From Sphingobium sp. HWE2-09 (GTDB lineage Bacteria > Pseudomonadota > Alphaproteobacteria > Sphingomonadales > Sphingomonadaceae): DNA of 64,000 bases. Positions within the stretch are counted from its first letter, which is position 1, and the number at the start of each line of letters is the position of its first letter. Shown here in pieces: positions 17,230 through 49,363 of the stretch. The notes beneath the pieces are model-generated. The model saw only the letters and a list, made by a program, of their open reading frames with translations. It was not told the DNA's origin and ran no database searches. The position numbers and the translations under genes were made by a program. The DNA is taken from NCBI RefSeq assembly GCF_035989265.1, contig NZ_JAYKZX010000001.1, positions 1,092,750 through 1,156,749 of the forward strand, in the 5' to 3' direction.

Positions 17230-18879
17230 TCAGTTGGCCGACACTGTCCGCCGCCTGAACGATGCTGGGTCGGCCTGCGCCCACCATCGTGCCAGTCGGG
17301 CGTCGCGCGCGCCCTCCAGCAACTCGCCCGGTTCCACGAACGGGTAGAGTTCGTCCATCGATCGCATCTCCACGGCGCTGATCCGCTGGCGCAGCCCATC
17401 GGGCGTAAACTCGTCCGGCGAATTGAGGCCGCACGCCACGACGATGTCGTGCAGCGCAGACAGCGTCGCCCGCTGGAACCGGGCGACCCTTTCGGCCTTG
17501 TCCGGGATCACCAGCCCCCGTTGCCGCGCGGGCGATTGCGTCGCGACCCCGGTCGGGCAGGTATCGGTGTGACACCGCATCGATTGGACGCAACCCAGCG
17601 AAAACATGAACACGCGGGCGGCGTTGCACCAGTCCGCACCCAACGCCGCGTTCATTGCGATGCCAGCGCCCGACGTGACCTTGCCCGACGCCACCAGCCG
17701 GACCTTGTCCTTAAGGTTGGTGCCCACCAGCGCGTTGCGGGCCAGCATCAATCCTTCGCGCAGCGGCATGCCAACCCGGTCGGACAATTCGGTCGGCGCC
17801 GCGCCCGTGCCGCCTTCCGCCCCGTCGATCACGATGAAGTCGATCAATATGCCGGTTTCGACCATCGCCTTCACCACGGCGAACAATTCATGGGGATAGC
17901 CGACGCACAGCTTGATGCCGACCGGCTTGCCGCCGGACAGGTCACGCATTTTCGCAGCAAATTCGACCAGTTCGATCGGCGTGGAAAAGGCGCTGTGCCC
18001 CGGCGGCGACAGGCAATCCTCGCCCATCGGCACATCGCGGGTGCTGGCGATTTCCGCGGTGACCTTAGCGCCGGGGAGCAGGCCGCCATGACCGGGCTTT
18101 GCGCCCTGGCTCAGCTTGATCTCGGTCATCTTGACCGCATCATGGGCTGCCCGATCGGCGAAATGCTGCGGATCGAAACCGCCCCGGCTGTCCCTGCAGC
18201 CGAAATAGCCCGACCCGATTTCCCAGACGATGTCGCCGCCATGTTTGAGGTGATAGGGCGACAATCCGCCTTCGCCGGTATCATGATAGAAATTGCCCAT
18301 CTTGGCGCCCAGGTTCAGCGCCTCGATCGCATTGGCGCCCAAAGCGCCGAAACTCATCGCCGAAATATTGAGCCGCGCCGCCTGATAGGGGCGGCTGCAC
18401 TGGTCTGTGCCGACATGCACGCGCGTTTCCTTGGGCGCATCGCGCGACGGGGCGATGGAATGGGCCAGCCATTCATATTCGTCCGAATAGACATCCAGTT
18501 CGGTGCCGAACGGATGAGCATCCACCTCCCCCTTGGCGCGGGCATAGACGAGCGCGCGCTCGTCATGGCTGTAAGGACGCCCATCCAGGTCGCTTTCCAC
18601 GATATAGGCGCGCAGAAAAGGGCGCAGCCATTCGAACAGCCAGCGAAATCGTGCGGATGCCGGATAGTTGCGGCGCAGCGAATGATGCGGCTGGAGCAGG
18701 TCCACCAGTGACAAGGCCAGCAGCGGCGCGAACAGCAGCAGCCACCACAAAGCGCGGGGATGTCGCCATCCGATGACAAGGGCGGCCAGCGTGCCGATCA
18801 ATCCCGCCAGCAGCAGCAGGTTGCGGGAAATAGCATGGTCGCGGGTCAGGGTGGCGACCAGGGGCGACCGTTCGGTCAT
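17230..18879 (-). CDS. Membrane-anchored FMN-binding glutamate synthase family protein
   Basis: 549 residues. Two membrane helices at residues about 20-62 are followed by a domain like the FMN-binding synthase part of glutamate synthase. Seen motifs include SAMSFGALGANAIEALNLGAK, TGEGGLSPYH, KLSQGAKPGHGGLLPG, IDGAEGGTGAAPTELSDRVG and the cysteine cluster C-x5-C-x4-C in GCVQSMRCHTDTCPTG that binds a 3Fe-4S centre in GltB. It lacks the glutaminase domain, so it is not a complete GOGAT. Its true substrate is unknown for this stand-alone subfamily. It overlaps the ThDP enzyme gene by an ATGA junction. Confidence 0.87.
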   Translation of the reverse strand: MTERSPLVATLTRDHAISRNLLLLAGLIGTLAALVIGWRHPRALWWLLLFAPLLALSLVDLLQPHHSLRRNYPASARFRWLFEWLRPFLRAYIVESDLDGRPYSHDERALVYARAKGEVDAHPFGTELDVYSDEYEWLAHSIAPSRDAPKETRVHVGTDQCSRPYQAARLNISAMSFGALGANAIEALNLGAKMGNFYHDTGEGGLSPYHLKHGGDIVWEIGSGYFGCRDSRGGFDPQHFADRAAHDAVKMTEIKLSQGAKPGHGGLLPGAKVTAEIASTRDVPMGEDCLSPPGHSAFSTPIELVEFAAKMRDLSGGKPVGIKLCVGYPHELFAVVKAMVETGILIDFIVIDGAEGGTGAAPTELSDRVGMPLREGLMLARNALVGTNLKDKVRLVASGKVTSGAGIAMNAALGADWCNAARVFMFSLGCVQSMRCHTDTCPTGVATQSPARQRGLVIPDKAERVARFQRATLSALHDIVVACGLNSPDEFTPDGLRQRISAVEMRSMDELYPFVEPGELLEGARDARLARWWAQADPASFRRRTVSAN

Positions 18880-20585
18880 GACAGCAAGTTCCGGATGATC
18901 CCCACCACATCGCGCCCGCGCCCGTGCAGCACGGCCTTGGCCGAATAAAGCGCCATGCCGGCAACCTGGCCTGCCTCGACCTTGGGCGGCATGACCAGTT
19001 CATATCGATCCGTCACCACGTCCAGCAAAGCCGGGCCGGGTGTCGCCAGCCAGTCGCGCACCGCACTTTCCAATTGCTCGGCCTTCTCGACACGGCGGCC
19101 CCATAAACCCATCGCCTCGGCAACGCGGGCGAAGTCGGGATTGACCAGTTCGGTATAGGCTTCCAGCAGCCCTTCGACCTTCTGTTCGATTTCCACGAAG
19201 TCGAGCGCGCCATTGTTGAACACTGCCACCTTGATCGGCAGCTTTTCCTGCACCGCCGTCAACAGGTCGCCCAGCAGCATGGCGATGCCGCCATCGCCCG
19301 ACAGCGATATCACCGTCCGATCGGGGAAAGCCGCCTTCGCCCCCAGCGCCTGCGGCATGGCATTGGCCATGGTGCCATGGCTCAGGCTGATCACGGTGCG
19401 GTTCTGCCCGGTGGCGGCGACATGGCGCAGGCACCAGACCATCGGCGATCCGCCATCGGCGGTATAGATGGCGTTGGCAGGCGCCAGACGGGAAATCACT
19501 TCGGTCAGATATTGGGGATGAATCGCGCCGCCCTTGCCGACGGTCGCATGTTTGCCCTCATCCTCCACCGTTTTGGCGCGATGGGTCAGGCATTCATCCA
19601 GAAAGTGACGGTCGCTGCGGGGCGCGATCCGCGGCATCAGCGCGTCGATCGTCGCCGCGATATCGCCCACGACACCCATATCCACCGGATGCCGCCGACC
19701 CAAATGGGTGCCGTCGATATCGACCTGAATGATGGTCGCCTTTTCAGGATAATATTGCCGCCAGGCGAAATCGCAGCCCAGCAACAACAATGTGTCGCAG
19801 GACATGAGCGCATGATAGCCAGCTTCACCGCCGAAAATGCCGGTCATGCCGACATTGAAGGCATTGTCATGCTCCAGAAAATCCTTGGCGCGCGACGTAT
19901 GCGCGATCGGCGCCTGCAACGCATTGGCGAGCGCCACGACTTGATCATGCGCCTTTTCACAACCCGATCCGCCATAGATGGCGATCTTCTTGCCTTCGCC
20001 CAGATACGCGGCGATACGGTCCAGTTCCGCATCGGACGGACGTATCACTGGCTGGGCGACATGCACCGCAAAGGCCGGTTCGTCGGGCGCCTTGGCGCTC
20101 GACACATCGGCTGGCACGATCAGCACGGCCACGCCCTTTCTCGCCAGCGCCGCCTGCGCCGCCATCGCGGTCTTGCGTCGCGCCTGTTCGGGGGTCCGGA
20201 TTTCCTCGCAAAACACGCTGCAGGACTGATAGATCGGCTTGAAATCGACCTCTTGCGGAAAATCGAACCCGAGTTCGTCGCGGACGATCTGGCTGGCGAT
20301 CAGCACCACAGGCGCACGGTTGCGGTGGGATTCGAACAGACCGTTGATGAAGTGCAGGCTGCCCGGTCCGCATGACCCGGCGCACAAGGCCAGTTCTCCG
20401 GTCAACAGCGCGTCAGCGCCCGCCGCAAAACCACCCGCCTCCTCATGGCGCACATGGACCCAGCGAATATCGCTCTGTCGGATCGCATCAGTTATATGAT
20501 TGAGCGTGTCGCCCGGCACGCCGTAGCAGCGGCTGGCACCCGCCGCGGCCAGCGTTTCAACGATTATCTCGGCCACCGTGCTCAT
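18876..20585 (-). CDS. Pyruvate oxidase/dehydrogenase-like ThDP enzyme (PoxB family)
   Basis: 569 residues from ATG 20585 (MSTVAEIIVETLAAAGASRCYGVPGDTLN). It shows the three-domain layout of ThDP oxidases: a Pyr domain with catalytic Glu in VRHEEAGGFAAGADA, a central FAD/nucleotide-fold domain (GKKIAIYGGSGCEKA, LLLLGCDFAWRQYYPEKATIIQVDID) and a PP domain with the ThDP/Mg motif GDGGIAMLLGDLLTAVQ...FNN. PoxB decarboxylates pyruvate to acetate and passes electrons to ubiquinone. The C-terminal membrane-binding tail of E. coli PoxB cannot be confirmed. Acetolactate synthase is an alternative, but the overall motif set favours PoxB. Translationally coupled to the glutamate-synthase-like gene. Confidence 0.82.
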   Translation of the reverse strand: MSTVAEIIVETLAAAGASRCYGVPGDTLNHITDAIRQSDIRWVHVRHEEAGGFAAGADALLTGELALCAGSCGPGSLHFINGLFESHRNRAPVVLIASQIVRDELGFDFPQEVDFKPIYQSCSVFCEEIRTPEQARRKTAMAAQAALARKGVAVLIVPADVSSAKAPDEPAFAVHVAQPVIRPSDAELDRIAAYLGEGKKIAIYGGSGCEKAHDQVVALANALQAPIAHTSRAKDFLEHDNAFNVGMTGIFGGEAGYHALMSCDTLLLLGCDFAWRQYYPEKATIIQVDIDGTHLGRRHPVDMGVVGDIAATIDALMPRIAPRSDRHFLDECLTHRAKTVEDEGKHATVGKGGAIHPQYLTEVISRLAPANAIYTADGGSPMVWCLRHVAATGQNRTVISLSHGTMANAMPQALGAKAAFPDRTVISLSGDGGIAMLLGDLLTAVQEKLPIKVAVFNNGALDFVEIEQKVEGLLEAYTELVNPDFARVAEAMGLWGRRVEKAEQLESAVRDWLATPGPALLDVVTDRYELVMPPKVEAGQVAGMALYSAKAVLHGRGRDVVGIIRNLLS

Positions 20586-20800
20586 CCACATATCCCCAAT
20601 TGCATCGCAAGACGCAGGTGGAAAGCGGTGAGCGCCATGCATGTTCCGTTACAAATGCGTTATGTTTGATCCGCATAAATAGGATCGACACCATGTCGTC
20701 AGCGGCTGTCCCCGCAAAGCCCTCGCGCCCGCGTAAGCAACCACCGCCAAAATCGTTATGATGCAGATCAGTTCGCTCTTTTCGGCGCAACTCGTGGATC

Positions 20801-20824
20801 GTTCCGGGGTTATGACCCCTGAAC
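20801..20824. promoter_or_regulatory. 24-bp dyad upstream of katE
   Basis: Arms GTTCCGGGGT and ACCCCTGAAC flank TATG, with a single mismatched pair. The element lies about 110 bp before the katE start. It could be an operator or, if transcribed, a leader hairpin. No specific regulator is identified. Confidence 0.4.
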
Positions 20825-20934: not shown

Positions 20935-23121
20935 ATGTCAAAATCCGCGAAAACCGATCCGAATAGCAGCAAGACAGCAGGCGAAACGCCCAAGAAGGCG
21001 CCGCCGCCCGCTCCGGCAGAGGCCGTATCGAACAGCTATGCGGAACAGCAGGCAGCAGGCGGCGAAACGCATCAGGTCGCAGGCGGCGACGTGGCGGTGA
21101 TGACCACCAGCCAGGGCATTCCTGTCGCCGACGACCAGAATTCGCTCAAGCAAGGCGCACGCGGTCCGACATTGATCGAAGACGCACATTTCCGCGAGAA
21201 AATCTTCCATTTCGACCATGAACGCATCCCCGAGCGTGTCGTCCATGCGCGCGGCTATGGCGCGCATGGCTATTTCGAACTGACGGAATCGCTCAGCGAC
21301 GTGACCCGCGCAGACGTGCTGCAACGCGTCGGCGATCGCGTGCCCGCTTTCGTGCGCTTTTCCACCGTCGCAGGGTCGAAGGGTTCGGCCGATCTCGCCC
21401 GCGACGTGCGTGGCTTCGCCGTCAAACTCTATACGCAGGAAGGCAATTGGGACATTGTCGGCAATAATATCCCGGTCTTCTTCATCCAGGATGCAATCAA
21501 ATTCCCCGACCTGATCCATGCCGCCAAGCCGGAACCGGACCGCGACTTCCCCCAGGCGCAAACCGCGCATGACAATTTCTGGGACTTCATCAGTCTGACG
21601 CCCGAAGCCATGCATATGGTGATGTGGACCATGTCGGATCGCGCCATCCCGCGTTCGCTCCGCACGATGGAGGGCTTTGGCGTCCACACCTTCCGCCTGG
21701 TCAATGCCGAAGGCAAATCGACCTTCGTCAAATTCCACTGGAAGCCCAAACAGGGTCTTCAGTCGGTGGCCTGGAACGAAGCGGTTAAGATCAACGGCGC
21801 CGATCCCGACTTTCATCGTCGCGACCTGTGGGACGCGATCAATGCGGGCGATTTCCCCGAATGGGAATTGGGCGTCCAGCTGTTCGACGATGATTTCGCA
21901 GACGGTTTCGATTTCGACGTGCTCGACGCGACCAAGTTGATCCCGGAAGAACTGGTCCCCATCCGCATCGTCGGCCGCTTGGTCCTCGACCGGGTGGTGG
22001 ACAATTTCTTTGCGGAAACCGAGCAGGTCGCGTTCATGACCCACAATGTCCCGCCGGGCGTCGATTTCAGCAATGATCCGCTGCTCCAGGGGCGCAACTT
22101 CTCCTATCTCGATACGCAGCTCAAGCGTCTGGGCGGCCCCAATTTCACCCATATCCCCATCAATGCGCCGAAATGCCCGATGGCGCATTTCCAGCAGGAC
22201 GGCCATATGGCGATGCGCAATCCGGTCGGCCGCGCCAATTACGAACCCAATAGCTGGGGCGCGGCGCAGGGCGGCCCGCGCGAAGATCCGGTGCGCGGCT
22301 TCACCAGCGTGCCGACGGTCGAAGATGGCCCGAAGCAGCGCGTGCGATCGGAAAGTTTCGCCGATCATTACAGCCAGGCGCGACAGTTCTTCAACAGCCA
22401 GACGCCGATCGAGCAAAAGCATATCGGCGATGCGCTGGTGTTCGAACTAAGCAAGGTGGAAAGGCTCGACATCCGTTCGCGCACCGTGTCCCACCTACTG
22501 AACATCGACGCGACCCTGGCGGAAACCGTCGCCGACGGCCTGGGCCTGGACATGCCGACCCCGGCGCAAGCGGCGCGGCCCACCATCATGGACCTCCCGC
22601 CATCAGACGCGCTCAGCATTCTCAAGAACGGCCCGGATAATTTCAAGGGTCGGAAACTTGGCATATTGCTGACGGACGGCGCCGACGCCGCCATATTCAA
22701 CGCCTTGGTCAAGGCGGTCGAAAAGGAAGAGGCCGTCTATGAAGTGATCGCGCCGAAAATCGGTGGCGTCACCCTGTCGGACGGCACGGCTGTCGCGGCC
22801 AAGCAGAAGATCGATGGCGGGCCATCGGTGCTGTATGACGCCGTCGCTGTGGTCACCTCGCTGGAAGGCGCGGCATTGCTGGCGATCGATGCAGCGGCGA
22901 AGGATTTCGTCACCGATGCCTTTGCCCATTGCAAGTTCATCGCCCTGACGTCGGAAGCGCAGGCCTTGTTCGAAAAGGCGGGCATTGCCGACGATCTTGA
23001 CGAAGCCTGCATGCCGCTCGCCAGCGCCAAGGACGCGGCCGCCTTCCTGACGGCCTGTCACGCGCTGCGCCACTGGCCTCGGGAGCTGAGCGTCGATCTC
23101 GACGCGCAGCCGACAGCCTGA
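20935..23121 (+). CDS. katE: Large-subunit monofunctional catalase (HPII type)
   Basis: 728 residues from ATG 20935, with AGAGGA 6 bp upstream. Catalytic residues are His104 (ERVVHARG), Asn177 (VGNNIP) and the proximal haem ligand Tyr391 ([12 protein letters not shown]). All three sit a constant 24 residues before their E. coli HPII equivalents. The extra C-terminal flavodoxin-like domain of clade 2 catalases begins near residue 565 ([16 protein letters not shown]). It disproportionates hydrogen peroxide in the cytoplasm, usually in stationary phase or general stress. The glycosyltransferase cluster starts 37 bp downstream on the same strand, so co-transcription is likely. Confidence 0.96.
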
Positions 23122-23158: not shown

Positions 23159-24343
23159 ATGCCATCCCCCGTTTCGCGCATCCAAGCGACGGACCGGATG
23201 CGTATCGGCATCATCGCCCATCTGAAACATCCGATCGGCGAACCCTTCGCCGGTGGGCTGGAAATGCACACCCATTTGCTGGCGCGCCTCCTGCGCGAAC
23301 GCGGCCATAGCGTTACGCTGTTCGCGTCTGCCAGGTCGGATGCGAACGTCGGGGTGGAGGCGATCTGCGCGGAAACCGCGATCAATATGGTCGGCACGAC
23401 CGAAGCGACGGATATTCCCTTTTTTCAGGAACATCATGCCTATCTCAGCCTGATGACCGATCTGCGCCACCGCAGCTTCGATATCATTCACAATAATTCG
23501 CTGCACTATCTGCCCGTCGCGATGGCCGACAGCCTGCCCATGCCGATGGTGACGACACTTCATACGCCGCCCTTCTGCTGGCTGGAAAGCGGCCTGCGCC
23601 TGTGCGCGGCGCGCAATAATGTCGTAGTGGGCGTGTCCCGATCCGTCGCGGCCTTGTGGGACCATGTGACCCCGACCGAAGTCGTCATATTGAACGGCAT
23701 CGATCTCGCCAACTTCGCCTTCCGCGAACAGCCGGACCCGGACGCCTATCTGGTCTGGTACGGCCGGATCGTGCCGGAAAAGGGGCTGCATCTGGCGATG
23801 GCGGCGGCCAGGCGCATCGGCCTGCCACTGAAGATCGCCGGACCGATCCTGGACGAGGATTATTATCGCAGCGCGATCGCTCCCGGCCTAGGCGCCCATG
23901 CCGAACATGTCGGCCATCTGCGTCATGGCGAATTGGCGCAACTGGTCGCTGGCGCGCGAGCCTTCCTATGCACGCCGCTTTGGGACGAACCCTATGGTTT
24001 GGTCGTCGCCGAAGCGCTGGCCTGCGGCGTACCCGTCGCCGCCTTCGCGCGTGGGGCGATCCCGGAAATCCTCGACGCCAGCTGCGGCGTGCTGGCAACG
24101 CCGGACGATGTCGCCTCCCTGGCGGAGGCTGGTCTGGCAGCCCTGTCGCTCGATCGACGCGACTGCCGCAAACGCGCGGAACGCATGTGCGACGCGGAGC
24201 GGATGGTCGACAGCTATGAAGCGCTCTATCGGCAGCAGATCGCGATAGCGAAGCAGGCCGAGCGCGTAACCGCGGTTCCTCCGGCGCTCGCCGCCCAATT
24301 GGACATGACGGCCTTGCCCGAGCGGCTGGCGCTCAATGGTTGA
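23159..24343 (+). CDS. GT4-type glycosyltransferase
   Basis: 394 residues from ATG 23159 (AGGGGGG 8-9 bp upstream); the family-like start MRIGIIAHLKHPI at 23198 is a strong alternative. It has a GT-B fold: the N-terminal nucleotide-independent half has GGLEMHTHLLARLLRERGHSVTLFA, and the C-terminal half has WYGRIVPEKGLHLAM and the retaining-enzyme motif WDEPYGLVVAEALACGVPV (E-x7-E). The acceptor is unknown. First gene of a seven-gene overlapping cluster after katE; its stop overlaps the next gene by 8 bp. Confidence 0.88.
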   Translation: MPSPVSRIQATDRMRIGIIAHLKHPIGEPFAGGLEMHTHLLARLLRERGHSVTLFASARSDANVGVEAICAETAINMVGTTEATDIPFFQEHHAYLSLMTDLRHRSFDIIHNNSLHYLPVAMADSLPMPMVTTLHTPPFCWLESGLRLCAARNNVVVGVSRSVAALWDHVTPTEVVILNGIDLANFAFREQPDPDAYLVWYGRIVPEKGLHLAMAAARRIGLPLKIAGPILDEDYYRSAIAPGLGAHAEHVGHLRHGELAQLVAGARAFLCTPLWDEPYGLVVAEALACGVPVAAFARGAIPEILDASCGVLATPDDVASLAEAGLAALSLDRRDCRKRAERMCDAERMVDSYEALYRQQIAIAKQAERVTAVPPALAAQLDMTALPERLALNG

Positions 24344-25268
24344 AGGTCCGATCCCCCTGTGCGTCTGTGTGCCCGCGCGCAATGAGGCGGACCGGCTGCC
24401 GATCCTGATCGACGCCCTGGCCGCGCAGGCATGGCCCGGCCCCGTCATGCTCTCCATCGCCATCAACAATACGACCGACGACAGCCTGCAGGTAATCGCG
24501 ACGCACGCCGCGCGCCATGCCGGACGGCTGGACATCGCCGTGATGCAAGCCGACTTCGCGCCCGAACAGGCCCATGCCGGATCGGCGCGAAAACTGGCGA
24601 TGGACGCAGGCCTGGCACGGTTACCCATTGATGATCGCGCGATCCTCGTCAGCACCGACGCCGACGCGCGCCCGCCTGTGGACTGGTTGCGCAATATCGC
24701 CGCCGCTATCGATCGGGGGGCGGACCTAGTGGGCGGCCGGATAGAGATCGACCCCGGCGAGCCGCTGCCCCCGTCCATCCATCGCCTGCGGCGCGCCTGG
24801 GATGCGTATTGGCAGGCCGTGCGCGCGATCGAAGATGATATCGATCCGCTGCCTTGGGATCCCGCGCCGCGCCACGGCGATCATACCGGCGCATCGCTGG
24901 CGATCAAAGCGAGCATTTACAGAGCGTGCGGCGGCTTGCCCCCTTTGCCGACCAGCGAAGATCGCGCGCTCGTAAACGCCGCGCTGAAGATAGGCGCGCG
25001 GCTCGTCCACCCGGCCGATGTCTGGACATTCGTATCCCCGCGGCGCGATGGGCGGGCAGGGGGCGGCATGGCCGACGCCATGCATGATCTGTTCGCGACC
25101 GCCGACGCCGGGGCGATCCCCACCGCGCCCGCCTTCGACCATTGGCGCGGCCGCGCGGCTTGGCGCAAGCGTCTGCGCGCCCGGCCCGACGGCCACGCCC
25201 TGATCGCACGCCGCGAACCGCTGCTGCCGCCGATGCCGCACGACATGGTGCTGGAACTTCCCGCATGA
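24336..25268 (+). CDS. GT2-family glycosyltransferase
   Basis: 310 residues with a GT-A fold start (CVCVPARNEADRLPILIDALAAQ) and a metal-binding acidic motif STDADARPPVDWL near residue 108. The tail (residues about 200-225, PTSEDRALVNAALKIGARLVHPADVWTFVSPR) matches the acceptor end of GT2 enzymes. There are no membrane helices, so the enzyme is cytosolic. Second gene of the cluster, in an ATGA junction with the next gene. Confidence 0.85.
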   Translation: MVEGPIPLCVCVPARNEADRLPILIDALAAQAWPGPVMLSIAINNTTDDSLQVIATHAARHAGRLDIAVMQADFAPEQAHAGSARKLAMDAGLARLPIDDRAILVSTDADARPPVDWLRNIAAAIDRGADLVGGRIEIDPGEPLPPSIHRLRRAWDAYWQAVRAIEDDIDPLPWDPAPRHGDHTGASLAIKASIYRACGGLPPLPTSEDRALVNAALKIGARLVHPADVWTFVSPRRDGRAGGGMADAMHDLFATADAGAIPTAPAFDHWRGRAAWRKRLRARPDGHALIARREPLLPPMPHDMVLELPA

Positions 25269-26308
25269 CGCGGCGACCGATCGGCTATTATGTCCATCAT
25301 CATGGCGCCGGGCATCTCGCACGCGCCAGGGCACTGGCCGCGGCCAGCGACTGGCCGATCGTGCTTTTGGGCACTGGTATCGGCGATGCTGGCATAGACC
25401 TGCCCGACGACCGCGCGCTGTCCGGGCGATTTGACGGCATGGATGGCGCCAGCGCGCGGCCCAATGCCTTGCATTACGCCCCCCTGGACCATGACGGTGT
25501 CCGGTCCCGCGTAGCCCGCATCAGCGCATGGATTGCAAGCGCCCGTCCGGCCCTGATGGTGATCGACGTGTCCGTGGAGGTCGCAATGCTCGCCCGCCTG
25601 GCGTCCGTACCCACCATCTATGTGCGACTGAACGGCGACCGCAGTGACCCGCCGCATCTGGACGCCTTCGCCAGCGCCAGCGCCATCCTCGCTCCCTTCC
25701 ACGAACGGTTCGAACGACCCGAAACGCCGGAATGGATCAGGGCGAAGACGCATTATCTGCCCGCGATCGCAGCTGCATCGCCTCCCGCAATGGCGGAAGA
25801 ACGATTAATATTGGTGGTAGCAGGCCGTGGCGGCCCGCCGGTAAACGGCGCACACATCGCCAAAGCAGCCCGCGCCTGCCCGCAATGGCAATGGCGCGTC
25901 ATCGGCCCGGTCGAACCAGTCGCCCCATGCCCGCCCAACCTGATCTTTGCCGGATGGGTGGACGATCCAACAAGCGAGATCGCCCGCGCCACCATCATCG
26001 TCGGCGCGGCGGGTGATGGTCTGGTCAACGCCGTGCTGGCGACGGACCGCCCCTTCATCTGCCTGCCCGAAGATCGCCCATTCCGGGAACAACATGCGAC
26101 GGCGCAAGCGCTCGACAGGCTGGAGGCCGCCATCGTCATCGATGCCTGGCACACCCCGTCATCCTGGCCCGCCTTGATCGATCGCGCTTTGGCCCTGCCA
26201 TTGCACGTCCGCCAGCAACTGCATGACCCGGCCGGTACGCGCAAGGCGGCGGCATGGCTTGCGCAATGCGCAGCGCGCGCAACAGATGTGATGGAGCAAG
26301 CGGCATGA
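25265..26308 (+). CDS. GT28/MurG-like glycosyltransferase
   Basis: 347 residues from ATG 25265, chosen for the ATGA overlap and the N-terminal GYYVHHHGAGHLARARALA, a GT-B glycine loop like that of UDP-sugar transferases related to MurG and MGT. The C-terminal half has LILVVAGRGGPP, FAGWVDDPTSEIARATIIVGAAGDGLVNAVLATDRPFICLPEDRPFREQHATAQAL, the usual sugar-nucleotide site. Substrate not known. Third gene of the cluster. Confidence 0.82.
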   Translation: MTRRPIGYYVHHHGAGHLARARALAAASDWPIVLLGTGIGDAGIDLPDDRALSGRFDGMDGASARPNALHYAPLDHDGVRSRVARISAWIASARPALMVIDVSVEVAMLARLASVPTIYVRLNGDRSDPPHLDAFASASAILAPFHERFERPETPEWIRAKTHYLPAIAAASPPAMAEERLILVVAGRGGPPVNGAHIAKAARACPQWQWRVIGPVEPVAPCPPNLIFAGWVDDPTSEIARATIIVGAAGDGLVNAVLATDRPFICLPEDRPFREQHATAQALDRLEAAIVIDAWHTPSSWPALIDRALALPLHVRQQLHDPAGTRKAAAWLAQCAARATDVMEQAA

Positions 26309-27432
26309 CCCTGTCCCCCAGCCTGGATACCCCATCGTCTGCACCGGATATGCGCGCCGCCGCCATCGCCCAGCAACTCGCGACGCTGGGCGCGCGCTAC
26401 GATGCCGCGCCGATCTTCCCGGCCGAAAGCATGAAATGCCTGGTCGCCGCCGGACTGCACCGCAGCTTCGCGCCGGTCGCCAGCGGCGGCGACCTGTTCC
26501 CAAACAGGACCGCCCATTATCTCAGCCTCATGACGGTCCTGCGGATCGTCGGGCGCGCCGATCTCAGCGTCGGTCGCTTATATGAAGGGCATGTCAATGC
26601 GCTCGCCCTGTTCGATTGGTTCGGCACGCCCGACCAGAAGGTACAGTTGAAGCGCACGCTGGACGCAGGCGCCTTCTACGGGGTGTGGGCCACAGAGCCA
26701 GCGCCGGGCGTGCAACTGCGCACCCGCGATGGCCGCAGCCTCCTGACTGGCCGCAAGTCCTTTGCCACCGGCGCAGGCGGCCTTGCCCATGCGATCGTCA
26801 CGGTACAGCCTGAGAAGGGCGAGCGCCGCCTGGTGATCGTGGCGGCGGACGACCCGGATCGTGCCGACCTGTCGCAATGGCGGGTGCGCGGTATGCGTGC
26901 GACTGGCAGCGGCACCTATGACCTGACCGACATGCCGGTATCGGACACCGATTGCCTGGGCCAACCCGGCGATTATGATCGCGAACCGCGTTTCACCACC
27001 GGCGCATGGCGCTTCACCGCCGTCCAGCTTGGCGGGATAGAGGCGCTGCTGACCGAAACGCGGCTCGCCATGTCCGACGCCGCACGCCAAGACCCGTTGC
27101 ACCGCGCGAAATTCGCCGACGCCGTTGCAGCGACGCGCACCGCCTATCTTTGGGTCCGCGAATGCGCCATCCGCGCGGCGCAGGACGATGCCGACGGCCC
27201 TGCCTTCGCCCGCATGACTCGCGGCGTGGTCGAACGATCTGCGCTGGACGTGATGGAGCTGGCCGCTCGCATCGTCGGTACGCGCAGCGCCATGGATGGG
27301 CAGCGGATCGACAAGATCATCCGCGATCTCAGCCTCTATCTGCGCCAGGGCGGTCCCGACTATGCCCGCGATCAGGCGGCCGAGGCCTGGCTCGATCATG
27401 ACGCCTGGGGCGCTGGCGACCGGTTATGGTGA
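26305..27432 (+). CDS. Acyl-CoA-dehydrogenase-superfamily flavoprotein
   Basis: 375 residues from ATG 26305 (ATGA overlap). The fold order of acyl-CoA dehydrogenases is visible: helical N-terminus (LFPNRTAHYLSLMTVLRIVGRADLSVGRLYEGH), a beta middle domain (GVWATEPAPGVQLRTRDGRSLLTGRKSFATGAGGLAHAIV) and a helical C-terminus ending RDLSLYLRQGGPDYARDQAAEAWL. The usual catalytic glutamate motif (YEGT) is not evident, so the chemistry may be a flavin oxidation or monooxygenation of an unusual substrate rather than fatty-acid oxidation. It overlaps the deacetylase gene by 7 bp. Confidence 0.75.
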   Translation: MTLSPSLDTPSSAPDMRAAAIAQQLATLGARYDAAPIFPAESMKCLVAAGLHRSFAPVASGGDLFPNRTAHYLSLMTVLRIVGRADLSVGRLYEGHVNALALFDWFGTPDQKVQLKRTLDAGAFYGVWATEPAPGVQLRTRDGRSLLTGRKSFATGAGGLAHAIVTVQPEKGERRLVIVAADDPDRADLSQWRVRGMRATGSGTYDLTDMPVSDTDCLGQPGDYDREPRFTTGAWRFTAVQLGGIEALLTETRLAMSDAARQDPLHRAKFADAVAATRTAYLWVRECAIRAAQDDADGPAFARMTRGVVERSALDVMELAARIVGTRSAMDGQRIDKIIRDLSLYLRQGGPDYARDQAAEAWLDHDAWGAGDRLW

Positions 27433-28094
27433 GGCACGGCCAGCCGCTGGCCCGGCAACGGCTCCGCTGGCTCATCCTGGCGCCCCATGCCGATGACGAG
27501 ACGCTGGGCGCGGGCGCCCTGATCGCGCAGTCGGCCAGCGCAGGGCTGTTTGCAGGCCTCATCTATCTCACCGACGGCTCAGGCTCCCACGCCGATCCTG
27601 TCGGCAATCTCGTGACGGTCCGCAAACGCGAAGCGGCCACTGCGCTGCGCCGCTTGGCGGGCCGCGAAGCCCCGCCGCCGCTTTATCTCGGCTGGAAGGA
27701 CGCCGCCCCTGCCCAACCGGGTAGCCGTGCGTTCGATCGCGCCGCGCAGACCCTCGCCGCGCTGTGCCGCCGCAAGCGCATCGACGCCTTGGCGGTCACC
27801 GCGTTGCATGAACCACATTGCGATCATGCCGCCGCCGCGCGACTGGCTTACGCGATCCAGAAATGTGCCAAACGCGGCATGATCGTGGCGGAATATCTGG
27901 TCTGGTCGGATGCACCAGCGGCCCGGTCCCATCGCACGCTAAGCACCGCGCCGATGCTGGCGGGCCAACGGCGCCACGCCCTGTCCGCGCACCGCAGCCA
28001 ACTCACCCCTTCGCACGGCCCCGGTTTCCGATTGCCCATGGAACGCCGCCGGATGCCCACCCGCGACACCCTCTATCTACGGAAAGCGCCATGA
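27426..28094 (+). CDS. PIG-L (LmbE) family N-deacetylase
   Basis: 222 residues. The zinc site appears as His21-Ala-Asp-Asp24 in LAPHADDETLGAG (HPDDE in most relatives) and His131/His134 in EPHCDHAAAARLAYA. PIG-L enzymes remove acetyl from GlcNAc-containing lipids or small thiols (PIG-L, MshB, BshB). Placement among glycosyltransferases indicates deacetylation of an aminosugar intermediate. An ATGA junction couples it to the methyltransferase. Confidence 0.88.
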   Translation: MVRHGQPLARQRLRWLILAPHADDETLGAGALIAQSASAGLFAGLIYLTDGSGSHADPVGNLVTVRKREAATALRRLAGREAPPPLYLGWKDAAPAQPGSRAFDRAAQTLAALCRRKRIDALAVTALHEPHCDHAAAARLAYAIQKCAKRGMIVAEYLVWSDAPAARSHRTLSTAPMLAGQRRHALSAHRSQLTPSHGPGFRLPMERRRMPTRDTLYLRKAP

Positions 28095-28681
28095 CGCGAC
28101 ATAAGCAAAGCCTGGACGCGGCCTATTTCGAAGGCATGTTTCAGGGGGCTGCCGATCCCTGGGATCTGGAAACCAGCCCCTATGAACAGGCCAAATATGC
28201 CCGCACGCTGCAAGCGCTGAACGACCGCACCTATGAACTGGGCTTCGAAGTCGGCTGCGCCAAGGGCGTCCTGACGCAGAAGCTAGCGGATCACTGCCGC
28301 GCGCTCCTGGCGATCGACGTCAGCGAAACGGCGCTGGAGGCGGCGCGCGAACGATGCGCGTCGATCGACCATGTCGCCTTTGCGTGCATGACCTTCCCCA
28401 AACAGGCGCCGCTCGGCAGCGCCTTCGACCTGATCATGCTGTCCGAAGTCGTCTATTATTGGGATGACGCGGACATAGGCCAGGCGGCCGACTGGATCGG
28501 CGCTCACCTGGCGCCCGGCGGCGACCTGTTGCTGGTGCACTGGATCGGGCAGACGGACTATCCGCAAAGCGGCGACGACGCCACGGCGAAGCTGCAAGCC
28601 GCGCTCGGCCAATCGATCGTCGTGGTCGCATCGGACCGCCACGACCAATATCGCCTCGACCTGTGGCGTCGCCGACCATGA
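28091..28681 (+). CDS. NodS-like SAM-dependent methyltransferase
   Basis: 196 residues starting at ATG 28091. The N-terminal segment AAYFEGMFQGAADPWDLETSPYEQAKYARTLQAL and the SAM-binding GFEVGCAKGVLTQKL (residues 51-65) match the NodS family. NodS N-methylates the amino group freed by a deacetylase on Nod-factor sugars. Here the gene follows a deacetylase directly, giving the same order of logic. The substrate is not known. ATGA overlap with the next gene. Confidence 0.85.
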   Translation: MTRHKQSLDAAYFEGMFQGAADPWDLETSPYEQAKYARTLQALNDRTYELGFEVGCAKGVLTQKLADHCRALLAIDVSETALEAARERCASIDHVAFACMTFPKQAPLGSAFDLIMLSEVVYYWDDADIGQAADWIGAHLAPGGDLLLVHWIGQTDYPQSGDDATAKLQAALGQSIVVVASDRHDQYRLDLWRRRP

Positions 28682-29520
28682 CCATCAGCCTGCTCACCAT
28701 CGTCAAGAACCGCGCCGGACATCTGGCCCAGCTGGTCGAAGGACTCCGGCGCAGCGCCACGCTGCCCACGGAACTGATCATCGTCGATATGGGCAGCGAC
28801 GCGCCCGTGCATGTGGGCGAAACGCCATTCCCCGTCCAAATCCTCCATTGCGACCAACCCGGCCTGCCGCTGGCGGCGGCCCGGAACATGGCGGCACGCG
28901 CCGCGATCGGCGATACGCTGCTGTTCCTGGATGTCGATTGCATCCCGATGCGCGCCCTTATCGGCACGATCGCAGCGGTCGCTGCCGAGCAGGATGCGCT
29001 CATCTGCGCGGAAATATTATATCTTGGCCCCGACGATGCGCGCGGCGATTGGGACGAGGCCGATCTCATGCAGCGCGCGGCGGGTCATCCCGTCCGCCTT
29101 TTTCCTGCCCAAGGCGTCCGCCAGGAACATAATGCCGGCCTGTTCTGGTCGCTGGCCTTTGCGATCAGGCGCGACCGTTTCTTCGCCCTCAATGGGTTTG
29201 ACGAAGGCTTCACCGGCTATGGCGCGGAGGATACCGACTTCGGTTTCCGGGCGCAGGCAGCCGCATTGCCGCTGCTGTTCCTGGGCGGGGCAGGCGCTTT
29301 CCATCAATATCATGCGATATTCGATCCGCCGCTCCAGCATCTGGACGACATCGTCCGCAACGCCCGCCTCTTTCATCAACGCTGGCAATTCTGGCCGATG
29401 GACGGCTGGCTGACGGCGTTCGAACGCGCAGGACTTGTCGCCCGATCGCAGGACAGCATCGCCATCCTGCGCCACCCCGACAAGGACGAAATCGACCGCG
29501 CCCGCGTCCTGCCCATCTAA
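28678..29520 (+). CDS. GT2-family glycosyltransferase (galactosyltransferase-like)
   Basis: 280 residues from ATG 28678. It starts TISLLTIVKNRAGHLAQLVEGL, has the metal site FLDVDCIPM near residue 83 and the late motif GFDEGFTGYGAEDTDFGFRAQA, typical of the glycosyltransferase family with a C-terminal galactosyltransferase-like region. It has no membrane anchor. Last gene of the seven-gene cluster, with only 10 bp to the stop of the convergent LacI-type gene. Confidence 0.86.
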   Translation: MTISLLTIVKNRAGHLAQLVEGLRRSATLPTELIIVDMGSDAPVHVGETPFPVQILHCDQPGLPLAAARNMAARAAIGDTLLFLDVDCIPMRALIGTIAAVAAEQDALICAEILYLGPDDARGDWDEADLMQRAAGHPVRLFPAQGVRQEHNAGLFWSLAFAIRRDRFFALNGFDEGFTGYGAEDTDFGFRAQAAALPLLFLGGAGAFHQYHAIFDPPLQHLDDIVRNARLFHQRWQFWPMDGWLTAFERAGLVARSQDSIAILRHPDKDEIDRARVLPI

Positions 29521-34551: not shown

Positions 34552-36294
34552 GTGCAAGCCTATACCCCCCCGATCGACGATTATCGCTTCCTCCTGAACG
34601 ACGTGCTCGGTTTCGACGCCGCCATGGCCGAACTGGGGCAGGAGGTGGACGCCGATCTCGCCGCCACGGTACTAGAAGAGGCAGGCCGCCTGTGCGCCGA
34701 TCGCCTGCAACCGCTCAACCGCGAAGGCGACGAACAGGGCAGCCAGCTGATCGACGGCGCGGTGCGCACGCCACCCGGTTTCGCCGACGCCTATCGCAGC
34801 TTCGTGGAGGCCGGATGGGCCTCGCTATCTGCCGATCCGGCCCATGGCGGGCAGGGGCTGCCTTTCATCCTGCAGCTCTGGTTCGATGAAATGATGTCGG
34901 CCGCCAACCTCTCCTTCGGCCTGTTCCCCGGCCTGACGCGCGGCGCCTGCGAAGCGATCGCCGCACATGGCGACGACACGCTCAAGGCGACCTGGCTGCC
35001 CGCCATGGTCAGCGGCGCATGGACCGGCGCGATGGCGCTGACCGAAAGCGGCGCAGGCACCGATCTCGCCCTGCTCAAGACCAAGGCCGTGCCGCAGGGC
35101 GACGCCTATGCCGTCACTGGCACGAAGATCTTCATATCCTCGGGCGACCATGATTTTGGCGGCAATATCGTCCATCTCGTCCTCGCCCGCCTGCCCGACG
35201 CACCGGCCGGGGTGAAGGGTATCAGCCTGTTCCTGGTCCCCAAATTCCTGCCCGACGACGCTGGTGGCTTTACCGTGCGCAACGCCATGTCGGTCGGGGC
35301 GCTGGAAAAGAAGATGGGCATCCACGCCCAACCGACCTGCGTCATGCATTATGACGGCGCGACCGGCTGGCTGGTGGGTGAGCCGCACCGCGGGCTGGCG
35401 GCGATGTTCACGATGATGAATGCCGAACGCTTGATGGTCGGCATCCAGGGGCTGGGCATCGCCGGCGCCGCCTATCAGCAGGCCGCCGCCTATGCCAAGG
35501 ATCGGCTACAGGGGCGCAGCGCCGACGGCGCGCACGGCCCCGTCGCCATTATCGACCATGCCGATGTCCGCCGCATGTTGCTCAACGTCCGCGCCTTCGT
35601 GGAGGCCGGACGCGCCCTGGCCGGATGGACCGCGCTACAATATGATCGCGCCCGCCTACACCCCGACGCGGCCGAACGGGCCAAGGCCGACGCCCGCGTC
35701 GCGCTGCTGACGCCGGTGATCAAGGCCGCCTTCACCGACCTCGGTTTCGAAGGTGCGGTGCAGGCGCAACAGGTGTTCGGCGGCCATGGTTACATCCGCG
35801 AATGGGGCATGGAACAATATGTCCGCGATGCGCGCATCGCCCAGATTTACGAAGGCACTAACGGCGTGCAGGCGATGGACCTGGTCGGGCGCAAGCTGGC
35901 ATTGAACGGTGGCGCAGCGGTCGAAGATATCTTCGCGCTGATCACCGCCGATCTCGACGCCGCAGCCGCCGCGTCGCCCGGCCTGCCCATCATCGATGCC
36001 GTCCGCGAAGCCCTGGCGCTGCTACAGGACGCGACCGCCGCGTTGCGCGGGGCGCAGGGCGACGCGGCCGGCGCAGCGGCGGTCGATTATCTCCGCCTCT
36101 TCGCCCTCGTCGCGATGGGCTGGATGTGGGCGCGCATGGCCGCCGCCGCCAGCAGCACATCGTTGCTCCACACCGCCAAGCGCGCAGTCGCCGATTTCTT
36201 CGCGCAACGCATCCTGCCGCAGGCCCGCGCGCTAGCAGCCAGCATCGCGGCTGGGGAAAGCGCGATCATGGCGCTGGGCGCGGATGCTTTCTAA
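34552..36294 (+). CDS. Acyl-CoA dehydrogenase (long, DmdC-like type)
   Basis: 580 residues from GTG 34552, supported by AAGGAG 7 bp upstream. Core acyl-CoA dehydrogenase motifs: MALTESGAGTDLALLKTKA, GTKIFISSGDHD, GIQGLGIAGAAYQQAAAYAKDR, QVFGGHGYIREWGMEQYVRDARIAQIYEGTNGVQAMDLVGRKL. The extra C-terminal helical domain and AYTPPIDDYRFLLNDVLGFD start are those of the ~590-residue subfamily that includes 3-methylmercaptopropionyl-CoA dehydrogenase DmdC. Substrate specificity is not decided by sequence. FAD-dependent, cytosolic, feeding beta-oxidation-type pathways. Confidence 0.92.
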   Translation: MQAYTPPIDDYRFLLNDVLGFDAAMAELGQEVDADLAATVLEEAGRLCADRLQPLNREGDEQGSQLIDGAVRTPPGFADAYRSFVEAGWASLSADPAHGGQGLPFILQLWFDEMMSAANLSFGLFPGLTRGACEAIAAHGDDTLKATWLPAMVSGAWTGAMALTESGAGTDLALLKTKAVPQGDAYAVTGTKIFISSGDHDFGGNIVHLVLARLPDAPAGVKGISLFLVPKFLPDDAGGFTVRNAMSVGALEKKMGIHAQPTCVMHYDGATGWLVGEPHRGLAAMFTMMNAERLMVGIQGLGIAGAAYQQAAAYAKDRLQGRSADGAHGPVAIIDHADVRRMLLNVRAFVEAGRALAGWTALQYDRARLHPDAAERAKADARVALLTPVIKAAFTDLGFEGAVQAQQVFGGHGYIREWGMEQYVRDARIAQIYEGTNGVQAMDLVGRKLALNGGAAVEDIFALITADLDAAAAASPGLPIIDAVREALALLQDATAALRGAQGDAAGAAAVDYLRLFALVAMGWMWARMAAAASSTSLLHTAKRAVADFFAQRILPQARALAASIAAGESAIMALGADAF

Positions 36295-36475: not shown

Positions 36476-39400
36476 ATGTCTAACGGAAAAACAGCTTTGG
36501 CGGCGATCCCGCGGCCGCGCGCATCGCTCTGGGCCGCCTTTGGCCTGGCCCTCGGCCTCGCCTTCTTCCTGATCAGCGGCACGATCGCCTATCGCAATAT
36601 CCAAAGCCTGCGCGAAAGCGACACCGCGATCCGGCACACCCATAGCGTCCTGATCGCGCTCGATGAACTTCTGTCGACGACGCAGGACGCGGAAACCGGC
36701 CAGCGCGGCTATCTGCTCACCGGCAGCCAGGCCTATCTCGAACCCTATGACAGTGCCGTCGCCGCGCTCGCCGCGCGGATGCGCACCGTCACCGACCTGA
36801 CGCGCGACAATCCGGCACAGCAGACCAATGTCACGGCGCTCAAACGCCATGTCGACGCCAAGCTCGCGGAATTGCGCGAAAGCGTCGAGCAGCGCCGGAC
36901 CAGGGGTTTCGACGCCGCGCTCGCGGTCGTCACCACCGATCGCGGCAAGATGGAAATGGATGCGATCCGCGCGCAATTGACCGGCATGGCGCAGGAAGAA
37001 TTGCGCCTGCGCACGATCCGCATGGACGAAATGGCCGCCGCCGCCCGGACCGCCATCACCACCGGCATCGTGTCCAGCCTGATCGGCGCGGGGCTGACCA
37101 TCGCCATATTCATGCTGATGCGCATCAGCACCCGCGCACGCGCACGCCAGCAATGGCTGCAGACCGGGCAACTGGGCCTCGCCAAGGCGATGGGCGGCGA
37201 AAAAACGGTTGAGGAACTGGGGGAAGCAATCCTCGCCTTCCTCGCCAGCTATCTTGGTTTTCAGGGCGGCGCCCTGTTCAAGGGCGAAGGCGGACGTTTC
37301 CTGCGCGCCGCCGCCATCGGCGTCCCCGCCGACGCGGACATGCCCGAAGGCTTCGCCATCAAGGACGGGTTGCTGGGCCAGGTCGCCGCGCAGAAACAGC
37401 CTTTGGTCCTGCACGATATCCCCGATGGCTATCTGACCATCGGATCGGGCCTTGGCCGGGACAAGCCCCGTCATCTCGCCATCGTGCCCGCCACCGCCGA
37501 TGGCGTCGTCAACGCCGTGATGGAACTGGGCTTCTTCCAGCCCATCGGTGACGATGTTCTGGCGCTGCTCGATCAGGCGTCCCCCGCGATCGGCATTGCG
37601 CTGCGTTCGGCTCGCTTCCGCACCCGCTTGCGCGAGGCATTGGAAGAAACGCAGCGCCAGTCGGGCGAATTGCAGGCGCAAAGCGAAGAATTGCGCGTCT
37701 CCAACGAGGAACTGGAAGAACAGGGCCGCGCGCTCAAGGAATCCCAGGTCCGCCTGGAACAGCAGCAGGTCGAACTGGAACAGACCAATAGCCAGTTGGA
37801 GGAACAGGCCCAGACGCTCGAAAATCAGCGCGACGAGCTGGAAAAGGCAGGCACGACGCTGCAATTGCGCGCACGCGAATTGGAGCAGGCGAGCCAGTAT
37901 AAGTCCGACTTCCTTGCCAACATGTCGCACGAATTGCGCACGCCGCTCAATTCTCTGCTGATCCTGTCCAAGCTGCTGGGCGACAATCCCGACGGCAATC
38001 TGTCGCCCGACCAGATCAAGTTCGCGCGGACGATCGAATCCTCCGGCAATGATCTTCTCACCCTCATCAACGATATTCTCGACCTGTCGAAGATCGAGGC
38101 GGGGCATATCCAGGTCCAGCCCGAAACCGTGCCGTTGCAACGGCTGGTCGGCGACCTGCGCCAGCTGTTCCAGCCCGTGGCCCAGACCCGCGGCCTCCAG
38201 TTCGAGGTCGAGATCGCGCCAGACTGCCCGCGCGCCATCGAAACCGACCGGATGCGCGTGGAGCAGATCGTCAAGAACCTGCTGTCCAACGCGTTCAAAT
38301 TCACCCAGGAAGGTAGCGTGCGCCTGACCCTGTCGGCGGTCGGCGACGATCGTCTGGCGCTCGCCGTCAGCGACACCGGCATCGGCATGTCAAAGGAACA
38401 GCAGGGCCATATTTTCGAGGCCTTCCATCAGGCCGACAGCACGATCAGCCGCCGCTATGGCGGCACGGGCCTTGGCCTCTCCATCTCGCGCCAGCTGGCG
38501 CGCCTGCTGGGCGGCCGCATCGACCTGCAAAGCCAGCCGGGGGAGGGCAGCTGCTTTACCCTCACCATACCGATCGCCTATGATCCCGCCGCCGTCACCT
38601 CCCGCCAGGCTGCGCCGCCGGTCAGCGTCGATACGCCCGCGCCAGCGCCCGTCGCCCCCGCGCCGGTCCGCACCGCATCGCCCTCACCGTCACCCTCGCC
38701 CAAATGGATCATAGAGGATGACCGCGCCGCCATCACCGAAGGCCGCCGCCTGCTCCTGATCATCGAGGATGACGAGGTGTTCGCCTCCGTCGTATGCGAC
38801 CTGTCGCGCGACATGGGCTTTCAATGCCTGGTCGCGGGTACGGCGGAAGAGGCGATGAAACTGGCGCGCGACTATATGCCCAGCGCCGTTGTCCTCGACC
38901 TTGGCCTCCCCGATCAGTCGGGCCTGACCGTCCTCGACCGGCTCAAGCATGACGAAGCCACTCGCCACATTCCCATCCATGTCGTTTCCGCGTCCGACCA
39001 TAGCCAGGCCGCCTTGTCCCTGGGCGCAGTCGGCTATCTGGTGAAACCGGTAAAGCGCGAACAACTCGCCGAAGTGCTCGAAAGCCTGCACGCGAAACTG
39101 GCGACCCGCGTGCGGCGCGTCCTCATCGTGGAGGATGATCCGGTCCAACGCGACGCCGTCGCCCGGCTACTGCTGACCGATGATGTGGAAACGGTCGGTG
39201 TAGGCACCGCGGCCGAATGTCTGGAACAGCTGCGCCAGCAGACCTTCGACTGCATGGTGCTGGACCTGACGCTGCCCGACACGTCCGGTTTCGCGCTGCT
39301 GGAAACGTTGAGCGAAGAGGGCGATCACGGCTTCCCGCCCGTCATCGTCTATACCGGTCACGACCTCTCGCCCGACGACGAACAGCGCCTGCGCCGCTAT

Positions 39401-39931: not shown

Positions 39932-40755
39932 TGCAGGACAAGGTTGAGGATATCGAAATCCAGCTGCTGCTGGAGGCGCTCTATCAACGCTATCATTACG
40001 ACTTCCGCCATTATGCACGCGCGTCGATCAAGCGGCGGCTGATGCAGGCGCGCAGCCAATTGGGCTTCGCCAGCTTCTCGGCCATGCAGGATCATCTGCT
40101 CCATGATCCCGCCACCCTGCCGCGCCTGCTCAACTATCTGACCGTGCAGGTCAGCGAAATGTTTCGCGACCCCTCCTATTTCCGCGCCCTGCGGGAAAAG
40201 GTGATCCCGCACCTGCGCACCTATCCCTCGCTCAAAGTGTGGGTCGCCGGATGCAGCAACGGCGAGGAACTCTATTCCCTCTCCATCCTGTTCCGGGAAG
40301 AGGGTCTGGACCAACGCACGCTCTTCTATGCGACGGACATCAATCCCGATGCGCTCAAAGCCGCGGAAGCAGGCATCTATCCGCTCGACCAGATCCGCAA
40401 ATTCACCGAAAACCACCAGAAATCTGGCGCGCCCTGTTCGCTGTCGGACTATTATACCGCCGATTATGGCCGCGCCGTATTCGACAAGAGCCTGCGGTCG
40501 CGCGTCGTCTTTTCCGATCACAGCCTGGTGACGGACGCGGTCTTCGCCGAAATGCACCTCATCTCCTGTCGCAACGTCCTTATCTATTTCGATCGGGATC
40601 TGCAGGACCGCGCGCTCGGCCTGTTCCGCGACTCTCTTGCCCGCAAGGGGTTTCTGGGGCTGGGGTCGAAGGAAAGCATGCGCTTTTCCGGCCATGCCTC
40701 CGCCTTCACCGATTTCGTGCGCGAAGAAAAGATCTACCAGAGGCAGGAGCCATGA
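39931..40755 (+). CDS. CheR-type protein-glutamate methyltransferase
   Basis: 274 residues. It has an N-terminal CheR helical domain (LLLEALYQRYHYDFRHYARASIKRRLMQ), a SAM site KVWVAGCSNGEELYSLSILF, FYATDINPDAL and LISCRNVLIYFD. There is no TPR extension. No chemoreceptor, CheA or CheW is encoded nearby, so its methyl target is not the usual one in this neighbourhood. It starts inside the kinase stop (TGATG) and ends in an ATGA overlap with cheB. Confidence 0.92.
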   Translation: MQDKVEDIEIQLLLEALYQRYHYDFRHYARASIKRRLMQARSQLGFASFSAMQDHLLHDPATLPRLLNYLTVQVSEMFRDPSYFRALREKVIPHLRTYPSLKVWVAGCSNGEELYSLSILFREEGLDQRTLFYATDINPDALKAAEAGIYPLDQIRKFTENHQKSGAPCSLSDYYTADYGRAVFDKSLRSRVVFSDHSLVTDAVFAEMHLISCRNVLIYFDRDLQDRALGLFRDSLARKGFLGLGSKESMRFSGHASAFTDFVREEKIYQRQEP

Positions 40756-49273: not shown

Positions 49274-49363
49274 GGCGGCTCCTTGGCTAAGGCCGCCATT
49301 GTCGCGCATCCGCCCAAACCCGCAATCCGCCCCGCCTCACCGGGGCATAGCTTGGGGTTATAG

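Follow-up and report, generated by a model that had tools for sequence, protein, structure and literature searches.

Within the 64,000-nucleotide stretch of the Sphingobium sp. HWE2-09 genome analyzed here (the window), seven genes at positions 23159–29520 lie head to tail on the plus strand, each opening with ATG. They encode, in order, a GT4 glycosyltransferase, a GT2 glycosyltransferase (GT2a), a MurG/GT28-like glycosyltransferase, a flavoprotein of acyl-CoA dehydrogenase (ACAD) fold (hereafter ACAD), a PIG-L de-N-acetylase, a NodS-like S-adenosylmethionine (SAM) methyltransferase and a second GT2 enzyme (GT2b). Coordinates and family matches are summarized in Table 1. Four of the six junctions are ATGA overlaps and the other two are overlaps of 8 and 7 bases, so that open reading frame coordinates and direct reading of the junctions both bear out the first-pass annotation's description of seven overlapping same-strand genes. 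A catalase gene lies 37 nt upstream of the GT4 gene, on the same strand, and is likely the first gene of the operon; it is named KatE for its best model, HPII, at a score (937.8 bits) that does not reach the cut-off of 1102. On the 3′ side, a LacI-type regulator gene on the opposite strand faces the operon.

Gene content, gene order, conservation across genomes, neighborhood statistics and a relaxed promoter motif identify this locus as a real, conserved, stress-associated biosynthetic operon. It consists of a four-gene core (GT2a, ACAD, PIG-L and NodS-like) and an extension of three glycosyltransferases (GT4, GT28-like and GT2b), a division that the first-pass annotation had not made. Nor had it drawn a link to catalase, trehalose or the general stress response, although it did propose a check for dependence on peroxide stress.

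Table 1. Features of the operon, its gene junctions and the fused Deinococcus homologs. Positions refer to the window, except for the Deinococcus fusions, which are given by locus.
Feature	Position	Strand	Match or remark
Candidate EcfG-type motif, GCAAC-N17-GTT (relaxed form)	20787..20811	+	148 nt 5′ of the KatE ATG at 20935
KatE/HPII-type catalase	20935..23121	+	Pfam Catalase, E = 1e-178
GT4 glycosyltransferase (extension)	23159..24343	+	Pfam PF00534/PF13439, E = 2.8e-20
GT4/GT2a junction	24336-24343		8 bp overlap
GT2a glycosyltransferase (core)	24336..25268	+	PF00535, E = 3.2e-8
GT2a/GT28 junction	25265-25268		ATGA
MurG/GT28-like putative glycosyltransferase (extension)	25265..26308	+	PF04101, 18.0 bits, below the 22-bit cut-off
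GT28/ACAD junction	26305-26308		ATGA
ACAD-fold flavoprotein, DszC/TdsC/MsuC-like (core)	26305..27432	+	Pfam ACAD C-terminal domain, E = 1.8e-7
ACAD/PIG-L junction	27426-27432		7 bp overlap
PIG-L de-N-acetylase (core)	27426..28094	+	PF02585, 58.3 bits vs. 28.2 cut-off, E = 1.5e-15
PIG-L/NodS junction	28091-28094		ATGA
NodS-like SAM methyltransferase (core)	28091..28681	+	PF05401, 71 bits vs. 24 cut-off, E = 1.6e-19
NodS/GT2b junction	28678-28681		ATGA
GT2b with Glyco_transf_7C region (extension)	28678..29520	+	PF00535, PF10111, PF02709; Pfam E = 4.9e-12
Deinococcus plasmid ACAD fusion, L144	2190-4529
Deinococcus plasmid ACAD fusion, L145	5905-8253
Deinococcus plasmid ACAD fusion, L154	1445-3817
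Deinococcus plasmid ACAD fusion, L155	2901-5264

Co-conservation of the operon and its four-gene core

The first-pass annotation had proposed a search for the same families in synteny, and the seven genes are indeed co-conserved. Scanning genome contigs with an alignment of ACAD sequences gave 89 confirmed loci, 80 of which were kept; several genomes are present twice in this set, L002 and L003 are near-identical, and L081, labeled Actinobacteria, carries genes that resemble Sphingobium and may be mis-binned. All seven genes are collinear on one strand in 70 of the 80 loci. As for the exceptions, the contig ends inside the cluster in three (L059, L074, L081), a GT28 match is lacking in L042 and a GT2b match in L048, L053 and L067, while three Caulobacter loci (L078, L079, L080) have ACAD-PIG-L-NodS, a GT2 gene of opposite orientation and, behind that gene, KatE. 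The offset between GT2a and GT28 is exactly −4 in 70/75 loci, and that between NodS and GT2b is −4 in 63/71; because such start-stop overlaps recur across species, they are not due to chance. ACAD was found at E ≤ 1e-60 in 15 of 296 genomes of the window's order, and the window's genome is the only carrier among 11 sampled genomes of its own genus, from which we conclude that the operon is an accessory unit. The full seven-gene set is also present on a Novosphingobium plasmid.

The division into core and extension emerges from loci located through NodS. A profile of this family matched 39 of 349 genomes sampled across the phylum, including the window's own; 45 places were listed, and 30 were fetched with their flanks. 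ACAD is adjacent in 24 of the 30, with PIG-L also present in 20 of those 24, and the full seven occur in three (L114, L115, L118). L118 has the seven genes and KatE rearranged, with GT4, GT2a and GT28 forward, GT2b, NodS, PIG-L and ACAD reverse, and KatE forward. Six NodS places have no adjacent ACAD (L120, L133, L134, L138, L140, L142). Four of these (L133, L134, L140, L142) contain unusually long open frames of 880–1067 aa with a NodS-like domain and neighbors that match the GT2b profile weakly; they represent a different NodS-containing system.

Fourteen further loci from the window's taxonomic order, chosen by ACAD (L164–L177), all contain NodS, PIG-L and GT2a; the complete set of seven is found in three, and 11 have only the four, in varied orientations. 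Together with the 24 NodS places adjacent to ACAD they make up 38 core loci. Two of these, L114 and L164, lie on contigs equal in length to those of L052 and L031, respectively, and may duplicate them. In 32 of the 38 (18/24 and 14/14), ACAD or NodS has a GT2a-like gene nearby, a likeness that does not imply orthology of the GT2 genes, and most core loci lack GT4.

Plasmid records with ACAD-PIG-L-NodS, with or without GT2, come from Deinococcus, Acinetobacter, Comamonas, Komagataeibacter, Roseomonas, Sulfitobacter, Bradyrhizobium, Pandoraea, Paracoccus and Kitasatospora, and a Nostoc plasmid, itself unannotated, has the complete core. The arrangement varies: parts of the core are separated by another gene in two Deinococcus records, PIG-L lies beyond the catalase gene from the adjacent ACAD and NodS in Cupriavidus, only NodS and GT2 are annotated in a Paraburkholderia record, and Rubrobacter has a variant core. 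Distances among core proteins are correlated (r = 0.56–0.80), with 0 of 500 permutations reaching these values, over loci additional to the first 80 (39 in number, 37 once near-duplicates were removed). This is expected if the core genes travel together, and species descent could contribute part of it.

Stress genes and a candidate promoter next to the operon

Bacteria commonly rely on catalase and trehalose to survive peroxide and drying. Among the 75 loci that bear GT4, KatE directly precedes that gene in 24, separates it from GT2a in seven and lies elsewhere in the stretch in another seven; it is absent from 34 loci with at least 2.5 kb of upstream sequence, and three could not be judged. 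For the 38 core loci, KatE (seven loci) or genes of trehalose and glycogen metabolism (otsA, otsB, treY, malQ, glgX; eight loci) are found near 15, which span 12 of the 24 genera. By comparison, 40 control stretches of 20 kb, at hand-picked positions in genomes that had given loci (not all of these genomes, and some twice), contain KatE in one case and trehalose or glycogen genes in none, in 800,000 bases vs. 720,659 for the case stretches. One-sided Fisher tests give P = 3.7e-5 for either kind of gene, 0.024 for KatE alone and 0.002 for trehalose alone; these values are optimistic, since the sample includes related genomes. GlgX, TreY and MalQ of L123, first labeled by reading, exceed their equivalog cut-offs. 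For OtsA of L131, L141 and L170 the best model supplies the name at a score below the cut-off, and in the other loci names were assigned by similarity to these proteins.

Individual gene orders illustrate the association. Comamonas has the core inserted between trehalose genes (otsA-ACAD-PIGL-NodS-GT2-otsB), and Acinetobacter johnsonii has, within 14 kb, catalase, ACAD-PIGL-NodS-GT2, otsA and otsB. The order in Cupriavidus is GlgE, PIG-L, catalase, a PA2169 four-helix protein, ACAD, NodS and GT2, and that on the Novosphingobium plasmid is catalase, the seven genes, Ku and Hsp20. The core is followed by catalase in Sulfitobacter, with Ku/LigD nearby in Bradyrhizobium and a general stress protein nearby in Komagataeibacter. 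In three genomes of one genus (L123, L127, L128) treY, malQ and glgX precede the core, glgX directly, and another PIG-L gene lies beyond it. None of the core genes corresponds to a known trehalose enzyme. The stretches shown for other records, e.g., those of Roseomonas, Deinococcus, Pandoraea, Paracoccus and Rubrobacter, have neither a KatE nor a trehalose link. Read by gene order, the three glgX-linked loci look Pseudomonas-like; in P. syringae, a published treY/Z deletion ended at glgX (PSPTO_3130; PMC8982409).

A candidate promoter motif upstream of katE is consistent with control by EcfG, the general stress sigma factor, which belongs to the same signaling system as NepR (PhyR-NepR-EcfG). 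The window's genome has the relaxed motif 5′ of katE and encodes a NepR above cut-off, and aligned upstream regions of sphingomonad katE genes share a conserved GCAAC...GTT pair. The relaxed pattern, G[GC]AAC-N16-18-GTT, occurs in 19 of the 25 KatE-first loci, at −92 to −170 and counting that of the window (shuffling predicts 0.9), in 5/7 loci of the GT4-KatE form (0.2 expected) and in 5/42 GT4-first loci (1.2 expected). Because the relaxed form was picked after looking, these counts are supportive and do not amount to a blind test. The strict GGAAC form was found in five of the seven GT4-KatE loci, in one of the 42 GT4-first loci and in none of the 25 KatE-first loci, the last of which weakens the case for an EcfG promoter. 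Scanned with the strict EcfG pattern, the window shows no site close to the operon. An initial search of the loci for the strict form had matched 8 of 73 vs. 1.7 expected, mostly Bosea-like. In a study of Sphingomonas melonis (PMC6599016), the EcfG motif is given as GGAAC-N17-20-GTT, GCAAC variants occur in the table of EcfG-dependent genes, and the regulon includes catalases and the overlapping glycosyltransferase genes #3506-#3509.

Enzyme families and the putative product

We favor, with a probability of roughly 0.45, the reading that katE and the seven genes form a general-stress-induced operon leading to a soluble oligosaccharide or glycoside with a modified amino sugar. Literature searches, not all of them aimed at this point, returned no title or abstract opening that describes the seven-gene set, its core or a product, in agreement with the first-pass annotation, which knew of no product for this gene order. 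Its proposal of a modified sugar also fits the gene families, namely glycosylation, de-N-acetylation, N-methylation and flavin oxidation.

The deacetylase and methyltransferase offer the closest parallel to a characterized pathway. PIG-L residues P20, H21, D23, D24, E25, H131, D133 and H134 show no variation in 19 sequences, and we take H21, D23, D24 and H134 to be metal ligands; judging by its family, the enzyme would strip the acetyl group off an N-acetylhexosamine residue. The NodS-like protein matches PDB profiles 4isc (113 bits) and NodS 3ofj (92 bits), and its E53, G55, C56, A57 and G59, presumably part of the SAM-binding region, are likewise invariant in 19 sequences. It may methylate the exposed amine, just as in Nod factor synthesis a chitooligosaccharide is de-N-acetylated by NodB and then N-methylated by NodS. 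This N-methylation step is suggested by the family, the gene order and the Rubrobacter variant, in which a PF01522 polysaccharide deacetylase (E = 3.6e-26), a class that we take to be that of NodB, precedes ACAD and NodS, with no PIG-L annotated in the stretch. As in Nod factor loci, a de-N-acetylase adjoins a NodS-family methyltransferase; however, the window has PIG-L and no NodB-class enzyme, a nodA-type acyltransferase is not among its seven genes by Pfam, and the NodS equivalog of NCBIfam is missed (85.6 bits vs. a cut-off of 300).

The flavoprotein has the ACAD fold and Pfam domains, yet by family profile as well as by fold it matches DszC/TdsC/MsuC best, above true ACADs. It shares this fold with these flavin enzymes at an identity of only 18–19% in the fold alignments; DnmZ, presumably a sugar nitrososynthase, also matches the profile, weakly (E = 5.5e-4). 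Acyl-CoA dehydrogenases carry their catalytic Glu within a C-terminal motif of the Y-E-G-T type, and YEGT is present in an ordinary ACAD encoded at 34552-36294 of the window. No motif of this type was seen in the flavoprotein family, in which Y-L-R-Q-x-G-P-D follows a shared R-D and does not vary in either of two alignments of 19 sequences; MAFFT places a gap at the Glu column, and the Glu position of the isovaleryl-CoA-dehydrogenase type was not checked. In all four Deinococcus loci examined, out of seven Deinococcus records listed, the ACAD protein also carries a fused GH1-like domain, roughly 400 residues long, in which the NE and TE/ET positions are retained. The label GH1-like comes from resemblance to a Pfam GH1 protein encoded adjacent in one of these loci; the N-terminal domain gave no PDB sequence match, no match to the cluster's glycosyltransferase profiles and, in the two tested, no Pfam match. 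Profile, fold and glycosidase fusion together make a putative flavin monooxygenase more likely than an acyl-CoA dehydrogenase, and this DszC-like enzyme may oxidize the sugar. A more specific version, which we consider improbable, has the amino sugar de-N-acetylated, N-methylated and then N-oxidized to a hydroxylamine (nitroxide/nitrone type) that would act as a radical scavenger beside catalase and trehalose, made by a sporadic, plasmid-borne gene set ranging from proteobacteria to Deinococcus, cyanobacteria and actinomycetes.

The four glycosyltransferases would assemble the product, with GT2a as the core transferase and GT4, GT28-like and GT2b lengthening or decorating the extended form. 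Pfam backs all of the family labels first given to the seven genes except GT28, which is weak: PF04101 stays below cut-off, and the family profile matches MurG in the PDB at E = 4.6e-5. Positions of the N-terminal H-H-x-G-x-G-H of the GT28-like protein, and D85, D87 and G180-Y-G-x-E-D-T-D187 of GT2b, do not vary in 19 sequences.

Four glycosyltransferases, one of them possibly related to MurG, whose acceptor is lipid-linked, could also build a cell-surface or lipid-linked glycan, such as a lipopolysaccharide side branch, a glycolipid or a short exopolysaccharide, whose de-N-acetylated, N-methylated residue toughens the envelope under stress. GT2b matches EpsD and HfsG (below cut-off), and glf (UDP-galactopyranose mutase) lies near two Deinococcus loci. 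In addition, an ABC transporter family (ABC_membrane_2) is encoded just 5′ of GT4 in five loci of the GT4-KatE form (L027, L032, L034, L035, L036; SbmA/BacA-like in L032, the one tested), and in these lineages it possibly transports the product. On the other hand, by Pfam none of the seven genes encodes a polymerase, a flippase, a ligase or a priming transferase, the flanks not having been searched systematically for surface-polysaccharide genes. The first-pass remark on the absence of the first three types stands, since neither they nor an ABC exporter of the surface polysaccharide type turned up among the seven or 12 further window proteins run through Pfam. The suggestion of a lipid-linked product fared worse: Pfam identifies no lipid gene among the seven, and hydrophobicity in their most hydrophobic segments peaks at 1.75, not clearly above the 1.69 of soluble KatE. 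The recurrence of the core next to otsA/otsB or treY/glgX also speaks against a surface glycan, which we regard as doubtful.

GT4 raises two further alternatives, to both of which its absence from most core loci is an objection. In the first, which is very unlikely, GT4 glycosylates a small acceptor, PIG-L deacetylates it and later steps finish an antioxidant cofactor of the mycothiol or bacillithiol type. Those pathways likewise pair a GT4 enzyme with a PIG-L deacetylase, here in a single operon next to catalase, and GT4 weakly matches BshA and MshA, as PIG-L does BshB1. However, equivalog scores fall far short of the cut-offs (BshA 42.8/273.7, MshA 29.4/462.5, BshB1 41.9/182.5), and in place of a BshC/MshC-like Cys ligase, not found among the seven, the set has a methyltransferase, a flavoprotein and three more transferases. 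In the second, GT4 and its partners would decorate a pterin, yielding a glycosylated, methylated form for ultraviolet or oxidative stress. The GT4 family profile matches tetrahydrobiopterin glucosyltransferases at 147–160 bits (5zer, 160 bits, is the next-best PDB match), but the Thermosynechococcus GT4 7fg9, its source assigned via a 98% identical protein, scores higher (205 bits). The seven include no pterin gene, and pterin chemistry needs neither PIG-L nor NodS; we give this idea hardly any probability.

Several other genes and matches in the window can be recorded. Divergent from katE on the minus strand are a pyruvate oxidase/dehydrogenase-type thiamine pyrophosphate enzyme gene (18876-20642; models below their cut-offs) and a gene read as glutamate-synthase-type (17230-18879; no NCBIfam match at 1e-50), which overlap by 4 bases. 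A large hybrid CHASE3/GAF histidine kinase with three receiver domains (36476-40755) has a 1-base overlap with a CheR-type methyltransferase gene, and a minus-strand gene at 47375-49309 joins a xylose-isomerase-like barrel to an HPPD-like glyoxalase half, resembling what we take to be known 3-dehydroshikimate dehydratase/HPPD fusions. A defense system was considered and rejected, the sole PADLOC match being that of the NodS-like protein to mads_2, over 127 of 492 profile positions.

Given the gene association described above, the soluble amino-sugar product favored here may act side by side with catalase and trehalose against oxidative stress or desiccation. Since the operon is compact and accessory, loss-of-function tests should be simple. 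If the reading is right, the product would be a third partner beside catalase and trehalose and a new class of protectant, giving a role to genes so far annotated by family alone. The genes for this putative partner, which would be an N-methylated amino sugar, often adjoin those for catalase and/or trehalose in groups as far apart as sphingomonads and Acinetobacter, and their core is found in Deinococcus as well.

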